This document shows, piece after piece, positions 14,001 through 17,000 of a stretch of DNA of 64,000 nucleotides (position 1 is its first letter; each line of letters starts with the position of its first letter). Origin of the DNA: Echinarachnius parma (Eukaryota > Echinodermata > Echinoidea > Clypeasteroida > Echinarachniidae); assembly GCA_037951105.1 (NCBI GenBank), contig JBAMJV010008452.1, positions 42,192-106,191 of the forward strand, read 5' to 3'. The translations under genes and the position numbers were made by a program. The notes beneath the pieces are model-generated. The model made no database searches, was not told where the DNA came from, and worked only from the letters and a program-made list of their open reading frames with translations.

Positions 14001-17000
14001 TAGAAATTAGGAATTGTGTTACTTGTCTACGAGCAGCACTCCATAGATGTAGACCATGGTTTAAACCATGGTTTGTACAAACCTCCTTTGTGAACCCGGG
14101 CCATAGAGTTTGAAAATTTCATTGCTTATAATTAAAAGTAATAGTGATGATGATTTTACCCCCTGCCGGTAGATGGAGACCAAAACAACAATCATTTCAT
14201 GAAATAAAATGACATTGCACAAATGCCTTATTTTTTATTACATTAATAAGTGTCACAGGTCAAAGCAATTAGTATATGATATCTCAATAAACGTAGACAA
14301 TGTGATCATGATCTCCAACATTACTGAGAAACATAGCATCAAGGGGGAGAGAGATAATCTGATAATAATCTCATCACTTTGTGTTCTGTCTCTGCCATAC
14401 AGGTGTTCATAGAGAGATACAGGAATCTGACGTATCTTGAGCAGCAGCTGGAGGAGTACAGTAGAGCTGAGCAAGACAGATTTGAGGTAAGTTTTATTAG
14501 TTGACAGATGATAACTTAAAACAAATTCACCAGAATATATATTTTGGATTTACTAAAGAACATGTAATGTTCATCATTTCCACATAGTAACTGCTATGTT
14601 GATCATCATCAGCAGCAGCACCAATACCAATACCACAACCAACAAAGCACAATGTTCGTACTACTTCCACCTCAATATGATGTTGATTTTGATTCATCCA
14701 GAAATCAAATCTATTCAAGTGGACTATTTTTTGATAGAACATTTTGTAAAATTATATCTTGCTATTATATTCTAGGAATCTGAAAACACCCTAAAACAGA
14801 TGCAGATCCACTCAGGGTAACCTGGTGGGCCTTGTATCCATTCTGTTGGAATGGCAACAAAATCTAGTTTGGATCCAGATGACGTGTTGATGATCTTGGT
14901 AATAATTTTTGCTTGCTTTTCTAGGAGTCTGAAAACACCCTAAAACTAAATACAGATCTGGTTCAAAAGTGAAACTTGGTTGACTCTCTATTGACTCTGT
15001 TGTGGGAATGGCAACAAAATCTAGTAGGGAATAGGTTGAAATATTGAAGATTTTGGTAGAGCAGAACCTATTTGGTAATCATTTTCTTGCTTTTCTAGGA
15101 GTCTGGTGGGCCACTCTGTGGCTGGAATGTCAACAAAAATCTAGTAAGGTTGAGAATGTTGAAGATCTTGGTAATCTTATGTTCTTGCTTTTCTAGGAGT
15201 CTGAAAATAACACGGAACAGATAAAGAGCCGGTTACAGGAAACTGGTGGGCCTAGTATATTCCCTGTGGGAATGGCAACAAAATCAAGTCTAGAAGTAGG
15301 TTAAGTGTTTAGGATGTTGGTTATTTTATTCAAACCTTTTTCGCTAGAGCAGGTTTGATTGTGTTATTTCTTGCTTTTCTAGGAGTCTGAAAACACCCTG
15401 AAGCAGATGCAGAGCCAGTAACGGCACCCTTGGGCCCTGTTTTACAGGCAAGATTGGCAGTCTCTATAGCTAGGTGGTCTTTCTAAACAGGTGGTCGCTA
15501 GAGCAGGCTTGACTGTATTATTTCTTGCTCTTCTAGGAGTCTGAAAACACCCTGAAGCAGATGCAGAGCCAGTATTACGGCACCCTTGGGACCTGTTTTA
15601 CAGCCAAGATTGGCAGTCTCTATAGCTAGGTGGTCTTTCTAAACAGGTGGTCGCTAGAGCAGGCTTGACTGTATTATGTCTTGTTTTTCTAGGAGTCTGA
15701 AAACACCCTGAAGCAGATGCAGAGCCAGTATTACGGCACCCTTGGGCCCTGTTTTACAGGCAAGATTGGCATTCTCTATAGCTAGGTGGTCTTTCTAAAC
15801 AGGTGGTCGCTAGAGCAGGCTTGACTGTATTATGTCTTGTTTTTCTAGGAGTCTGAAAACACCCTGAAGCAGATGCAGAGCCGGTTACGGCAGGAGGAGG
15901 ACAGGATCAAGTTGACCGATGAGATCCTGGGCGATGAGGAGATGAACGGCCTCGACGTGGTGGACGATGCCGAGGAGAGCGAGAGCGAGGACGAGGATGA
16001 CGAGGATGATGATGCGGTGGTGGAGACGACGGCGAAAGGAAAGTTCAGGCAAGGTGAGGATGTCAGAGTTATTTAGGAGGGATACAAACTAAGTGCTTTT
16101 AAACACTGTATTAAGTGCTATATCATTGCAATGTATCATTATTATTATACGATACATCAAACAATCATTGTACTTAGATAATTCAAGTGACTATAAAATG
16201 CGTACAATTTTGATGTTGAATACCATTTAAAAGATATGATATTTATTTTGTGAAATAAAAATTAAAACAGGTAACAAGACTATTTACTTGGAATCATCAT
16301 CAGATCTAAAATAAAACTCTTTGAATGTAAAACATATATGTGTAACATGCTATGAACTCATTAATTAATGTGTTTTATGTCTAATTTTGTGAAATGTGTT
16401 TGTTGAAATCCCTGACAGCTGCTCCTCAACCACAACAGAAACCAAGAGTCTTCGGCAACATGGGTGCTGATCTCAGTGATGATGTGAGTACAGGGTTCAC
16501 ACAGGGCCTGGACAATCTGGAAAGTCATGGAATTTGACTTTTTTGTGTTTTCCAGGGAAAATTGTAAAATTATCTCATGGGTAATGGAAAGTCACAGAAT
16601 TTCTTTATATCTGCACTAAAATACAAATCAAATTAAGATTATTCAAACTTTTTTTCTTCATAGAAACGTGGTGAAAAGTCATGGAAAAGTCATGGCATTC
16701 TTGCTATAAAGGACATAGAATTTGACTTGAAAATAAGTGTACGAGTACCGTATTTGTCGGTGTATTACCCGCTCCGATGTATTAACCGCACCCCCAACTT
16801 TGGCCGTTTTTCCATGAAAAAAAAAAAAATTTGATAGTATAATTCTTGATTTTTAGTCTTTAGATGGTCAGCATTTTCTTAGGAAAGGTACCAAAAATAG
16901 CTTATCTATCAGAGAATTTTGCCTATGAATTTTGTTTTATTTACTGAAGTCTCCGATATAAATAAAGAAAATTATCAGGCCTTCTTCACAGCAGAAGAAT

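Follow-up and report, generated by a model that had tools for sequence, protein, structure and literature searches.

Tandem copies of the intron 8/exon 9 boundary of CLUAP1 in Echinarachnius parma, a probable mirage-like minisatellite

In amphioxus, minisatellites that span intron/exon boundaries are known as mirages. Two reports give the globin genes BflGb6 and BflGb9, Adh3 and troponin C as cases (PMC3087553; PMC3902484), and PGBD5 repeats, Adh and troponin C are the additions of the second (PMC3902484). In the first report, the BflGb6 unit is 150-160 bp long and is present in six versus three units between haplotypes; both exon edges are affected, AG or GT is retained in many units, and RT-PCR suggested regular splicing (PMC3087553). 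Minisatellite expansion at exon/intron boundaries has also been described for human internal tandem repeats, with new introns proposed to arise via cryptic sites (PMC2812944). In the β-globin constructs with duplicated 3' splice sites (Reed and Maniatis 1986), 14, 55 or 205 nt of exon were used, as summarized in PMC5389562.

Here we describe an array in CLUAP1 of the echinoderm E. parma, found in a 64,000-nt stretch of contig JBAMJV010008452.1 (hereafter the window). Mitochondrial sequence of the genome agrees with this host: COX1 on contig C14600 reads best with ATA as Ile, AGA as Ser and its single AAA, at a generally invariant position, as Asn, and behind it come tRNA-Arg, nad4L, cox2 and a tRNA-Lys whose anticodon is CTT, nad4L and cox2 being named from our reading of their frames. 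Both the code and the gene order are those of echinoderms. The array resembles the amphioxus mirages in its boundary-straddling tandem units (156 bp here, 150-160 bp in BflGb6), in a copy number that differs between haplotypes (seven versus eight decoy acceptors here, on two contigs that we infer to be alleles), and in that 5' and 3' exon edges are both affected while AG or GT signals are kept in many units. It differs from them in its host, an echinoderm and not a cephalochordate, in having two generations of units, the younger with the end of a dispersed element, and in the number of exons affected, several within this gene and 18 of the 38 exon matches surveyed. Regular splicing was supported by RT-PCR in amphioxus and is a prediction for CLUAP1. 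Like the β-globin constructs, the array has serial identical acceptors, each with a shortened exon piece, before a true exon; the decoys carry 7 to ~50 nt of exon and the true exon 205 nt, against 14, 55 or 205 nt in the constructs. Unlike them, it is natural, holds seven to eight decoys mostly ~150 bp apart, and is polymorphic in number. With the human internal tandem repeats it shares minisatellite expansion at an exon/intron boundary; those have units of 30 bp on average and lie in genes of primate segmental duplications (PMC2812944). None of the literature matches listed, in a search that subscription papers mostly lay outside, reported exon-edge tandem copies in an echinoderm. The mirage kind is already known from amphioxus; the CLUAP1 array is a further case, probably in a new phylum, and it stands out for the apparent prevalence of such copies in the genome.

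The acceptor array in front of exon 9

The gene was identified as CLUAP1/IFT38 by its matches to Pfam family PF10234 (Cluap1, E 6.6e-86) and PDB entry 8bd7_L (E 9.6e-59). Window positions 14,403-16,053 hold exon 8, intron 8 (1,362 nt) and exon 9, and intron 9 is ~363 nt long. Upstream of the true exon start, the boundary with exon 9 is repeated seven times within intron 8, each unit having an intron part and an exon part. The eight resulting acceptors read TAG/GARTCTG (the slash marks the splice boundary), with first exon bases at 14776, 14925, 15099, 15197, 15383, 15537, 15693 and 15849; these and the exon 8 donor at 14487 were all found where an earlier note on this DNA had placed them. AG was retained in all seven decoys. 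As judged from the reading frame, splicing probably goes to the last acceptor (15849). The repeats are not a product of chance: when the same DNA was shuffled within 200-nt blocks, no local repeats were found in any of three groups. Rfam gave no match in the window. Elsewhere in the window, on the minus strand, we saw a 662-codon open frame (27682-29670) that looked B-box/TRIM-like by eye and had no Pfam match at E 0.01, and a WD40 exon (46613-46942; PF00400, E 1.2e-7) that is probably part of a minus-strand gene.

Table 1. Positions of the exons, exon copies and repeat units of CLUAP1 in the window.
Feature	Position	Strand	Remarks
Exon 2, acceptor-side partial copy	6891..6982	+	True exon 2 from ~7118; second fragment 6742-6798
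Exon 4, internal fragment copy	10800..10904	+	True exon from 11774
Exon 5, donor-side partial copy	12460..12600	+	True exon 5 read as ending ~12414
Exon 8	14403..14486	+	Donor GTAAGT starts at 14487
Decoy 1	14776..14824	+	Acceptor and diverged exon 9 head; old copy; end approximate
Decoy 2	14925..14980	+	Acceptor and diverged exon 9 head; old copy; end approximate
Decoy 3	15099..15105	+	Acceptor and only 7 nt of exon head; old, truncated
Decoy 4	15197..15245	+	Acceptor and exon head; old copy; end approximate
Apparent shortened copy of dispersed inverted-end element, upstream of decoy 5	15328..15363	+	Putative, from by-eye comparison with element ends
Decoy 5	15383..15426	+	Exon head intact; stop after 12 codons
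Young 156-bp unit (reference copy) with decoy 6 (15537)	15421..15576	+	Intronic part largely matches 3' end of dispersed element
Young 156-bp unit with decoy 7 (15693)	15577..15732	+	
Last 156-bp unit, with head of true exon 9	15733..15888	+	
True exon 9	15849..16053	+	205 nt; donor AAG/GTGAGG
Last-exon tail and 3' flank, 202-bp tandem copies	18574..19071	+	

At the 3' end of the array the acceptors are spaced by 154, 156 and 156 bp, in agreement with the 154-156 bp reported before, and TRF detected a 156-bp array at 15341-15882 with 96% matches. The three nearest copies had also been called nearly identical. This holds for the two units that follow the reference unit (15421-15576), which are 97% and 95% identical to it; the preceding unit (15267-15422), which contains the decoy at 15383, is only 62% identical, with its exon head intact. 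Reading on from exon 8, decoys 1-7 give 14, 15, 41, 35, 12, 30 and 30 residues before a stop, so every one of these frames meets a stop after at most 41 codons and before it reaches the exon 9 donor. The 25-30 codons previously given for the recent copies fit two of the three nearest (30 and 30) but not the third (12).

We scored splice sites with approximate weight matrices. On this measure, acceptor scores of decoys 1-7 were 6.8, 11.1, 12.5, 11.1, 11.1, 10.6 and 9.3, and that of the true acceptor was 9.3; five of the seven decoys scored higher, one equal and one lower. Among donors, scored in like manner, that of the true exon 9 reached 11.9. The best GT before the next acceptor came to 6.3 in all three young copies, and in the four old ones the values were 8.6, 4.6, 6.4 and 8.6. 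The earlier statement that the copies have no donor was thus nearly right, the best decoy GT reaching at most 8.6 on these weights. Since decoy acceptors mostly equal or exceed the true one and their donors are weaker, acceptor strength as measured here cannot mark the copy to be used, and the donor can. The proposed reading as a natural tandem-acceptor array is supported: six of seven decoys score no lower than the true acceptor, and the structure resembles the constructs with duplicated 3' splice sites.

The old copies were compared pairwise for signs of constraint. Among copies 1, 2 and 4, the exon heads were identical at 36/42, 33/46 and 34/45 positions (72-86%) and the intron parts at 60/81, 63/79 and 76/95 (74-80%), so that in these three copies of this locus the exon heads showed no conservation beyond the intron background. 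The polypyrimidine tract with AG, which is short and of low complexity, matched at 14/19, 14/15 and 17/18 positions. Some of these pairs are more alike in this core than in the sequence around it, a possible hint of constraint.

The units are of two kinds, four old copies with a locus-specific intron part and young units with the 3' end of a dispersed element. A 240-bp probe from the old units matched only the window contig and a second contig, C272, in a search of the genome (1.2 Gb, 14,790 contigs). By contrast, of the 50 matches listed for a probe from the young unit, in a search that scored 40 of 304 candidates, 43 lay on other contigs, over the intronic part. All four element loci that we inspected end in CAGGTTTGACTGTA or a close variant, and an inverted CAGGTTTGACTGTA, whole or partial, lies upstream in three of the four; we read these loci as copies of an inverted-end element. 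The element (window 15424-15830; on other contigs, loci L005-L008 and L028-L047) is locally tandem in places, with ~70-bp steps on contig C4171. Old and young units stop at nearly the same point of the exon, which would be expected if later units arose by exchange between earlier ones. In the simplest history, whose order of events is our reconstruction, an old boundary-spanning array would have been followed by arrival of the element beside its 3'-most acceptor, after which the enlarged unit would have grown in tandem again.

The exon 9 coding sequence was found in one place besides the window, on C272. There, eight decoys precede the true exon, versus seven in the window, and intron 8 is 1,520 nt long, versus 1,362 nt. 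Aligned globally over the stretch that runs from exon 8 through intron 8, the two contigs differ by nine SNPs in 1,444 aligned bases, by four small indels and by a single 156-bp gap. As only two places encode exon 9, we took C272 as an allele and set a paralog aside; this assignment comes from the number of places, not from phased reads. The last three intronic units of C272 are identical over 107/107 nt, which points to recent growth of its array. At its 3' end the array appears to have grown lately and still varies in unit number. Because C272 carries an extra 156-bp unit and nine SNPs, the array is not the assembly error of one contig, and the worry over an artefact raised in the earlier note is largely answered.

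Copies beside other exons

Partial copies also lie beside exons 2, 4 and 5 and the last exon of CLUAP1 (Table 1), each on the side that keeps the working exon whole. The donor-side copies of exon 5 number one in the window (12349-12600) and three in C272 (L009/L010), and one of the latter retains an intact donor sequence. Two further local repeats were seen in the window: a 202-bp-period repeat of the last-exon tail and 3' flank, followed by 78-bp and 25-bp arrays (18574-19463), and a 148-bp tandem duplication with 75% matches in the intron before exon 7 (12984-13282).

We then surveyed chaperonin genes. A search with PF00118 gave 63 exon matches (the 63 rows of the full match table), 30 of them with flanking DNA. 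By a BLAST filter, a direct repeat touched an exon match in 15/30 chaperonin loci. The background for 180-nt pieces was 55/357 in the window and 51/233 in the flanks of the dispersed element, a rough comparison in which many exon matches exceed 180 nt and lengths are unequal. A simulation showed that the BLAST survey of repeat offsets was blind below ~90 bp, and it was replaced by an ungapped diagonal scan. The final chaperonin sample held 71,130 bases and 38 exon matches, the ones among 39 entered that lay wholly within extracted DNA, after overlaps had been merged and contigs C8375 and C906 dropped as probable alleles.

The ungapped scan of this sample found 25 repeat clusters, of which 20 touched an exon, compared with 6.7 of 25 under random placement. 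Counting any overlap of at least 15 nt, a partial tandem copy was present at 18/38 exon matches; 11 clusters were acceptor-side and nine donor-side. We kept contig C9177, although its exon is like that of C3032 in frame length and site scores; without it the counts are 17/37 exons and 19/24 clusters. A repeat pair that includes an exon can be recognised for longer, since one of its two members is under constraint. The exon excess gave P 1.4e-4 under an assumed two-fold recognisability advantage and P 0.026 under a four-fold one, and since P depends on this assumption, enrichment of repeat clusters at exons is likely, not certain. A stricter test asked for the splice site itself and covered 17 of the 18 exons with copies. 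At a working threshold of 22/30 identities or more, the predicted site was present in the copy in 11/17, and AG or GT was kept at the copied site in 9/17. Among 134 kinesin matches, contigs C10331, C12482, C1423, C4289 and C1406 each hold, by eye, two same-strand matches within ~400 bp that cover overlapping stretches of the kinesin model.

The offsets of local repeats were pooled over the window and the other loci, the dispersed-element loci being left out. Of the 47 merged clusters, 23 had an offset of 140-220 bp, eight of <100 bp and seven of >300 bp, with a peak at 180-200 bp. The binomial P for this preference was 2.7e-13, against a weak null, a uniform spectrum. In the BLAST version of the scan, 24 dispersed-element loci gave 30 clusters with a wider spread (11/30 at 150-210 bp and 11/30 at >300 bp), and locus L048 gave three clusters, two with an offset of >300 bp; in simulation, which was of the BLAST version, no long offsets were lost. 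Copy steps in chaperonin genes are often ~190 bp. We offer it as a suggestion only that a preferred offset near 180-200 bp reflects a nucleosome- or Okazaki-sized step.

Origin of the array and use of its acceptors

We consider the array, with high confidence, a neutral mirage, that is, a minisatellite straddling the intron 8/exon 9 boundary, whose decoys are mostly ignored through exon definition. Repeated tandem duplication and unequal exchange would have copied the end of intron 8 along with the opening 45-50 nt of exon 9. After every such step a truncated exon head would lie upstream, and the working exon would stay 3'-most, as the sole copy joined to the remainder of the exon. There would have been at least two generations of units, the old locus-specific one and the young 156-bp one, the latter formed after the element came to lie ~20 nt upstream of the acceptor. 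The copies beside other CLUAP1 exons and chaperonin exons, on both sides, fit such an undirected duplication process.

The spliceosome would define exon 9 across the exon, the donor at 16054 pairing with the nearest acceptor at 15849. Of the eight acceptors, this one alone is followed, after 205 nt, by a strong donor, so the decoys would mostly be ignored. According to PMC9225289, when the flanking introns are large, preference goes to the splice sites nearest to each other across the exon. Introns 8 (1,362 nt) and 9 (~363 nt) are not very long, which makes exon definition plausible and not certain. Against the neutral reading stand the two old decoys with a GT site scoring 8.6. Recursive splicing was set aside, as the copies read AG/GA, not AG/GT.

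Occasional use of a decoy would lead to a stop after 12-41 codons and probably to mRNA decay. A related possibility is that a few per cent of transcripts use decoys as splicing noise removed by decay, at a mild cost rising with copy number. The decoy acceptors are intact, lie at a shorter distance from the exon 8 donor and emerge sooner during transcription, and PMC5389562 reports that a duplicated strong 3' splice site allowed two U2AF35 and U2 snRNP on one pre-mRNA in extracts. However, the Adh3 and globin mirages of amphioxus seemed by RT-PCR not to disturb regular splicing (PMC3087553). Such leakage is conceivable, somewhat less probable than its absence, and it is compatible with the neutral mirage as a quantitative detail.

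The earlier note had also offered a regulated poison-exon cassette, in which decoys chosen in some tissues would bring about mRNA decay or a tail-less IFT38. The scores of six of the seven decoys, equal to or above that of the true acceptor on the matrix used, would suit this, as would the stop in each decoy frame within 41 codons, before the exon 9 donor. However, the decoys lack a strong donor and have weak ones only, the diverged heads of the old copies show no excess conservation, copy number differs between the window contig and C272, and many other exons have similar copies on both sides. Weak donors, lack of constraint and the generality of the process rule the cassette out as the best reading, and we now think it very unlikely. 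We give as little credence to the array being an intermediate of intron or exon gain, in which a decoy head would be recruited as a new exon. Such gain was proposed for amphioxus globins (PMC3087553), and a GT site scoring 8.6 lies downstream of two old decoys; however, each of the two candidate exons (14776-14824; 15197-15245) has a length of 49 nt, not a multiple of three, and would therefore shift the frame. An assembly artefact, a repeat collapsed or stuttered, is hardly credible and was ruled out via C272: tandem repeats are often misassembled, and one amphioxus mirage is said in PMC3087553 to be aberrantly assembled in the genome draft, but two contigs carry this array with SNPs and different unit numbers, and its old copies are too diverged for stutter.

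Taking the neutral mirage as our reading of this locus, we propose tentatively, and with more doubt than belief, that exon-edge duplication is pervasive and continuing in this genome with a ~190-bp step, that about half of housekeeping exons have decoys, that splicing relies on exon definition, and that CLUAP1 is an extreme case. If this is true, the genome would amount to a natural library of competing splice sites, and changes in intron length as well as new introns would steadily arise from it. The array itself is a natural series of near-identical acceptors whose number differs between alleles, through which splice-site choice could be measured in vivo and compared with the classical constructs. 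Should the frequency of exon-edge copies in the chaperonin sample hold more widely, many such tests of splice choice would be available in this genome, and the duplication process would connect the growth of minisatellites with variation in intron length and perhaps with intron gain.
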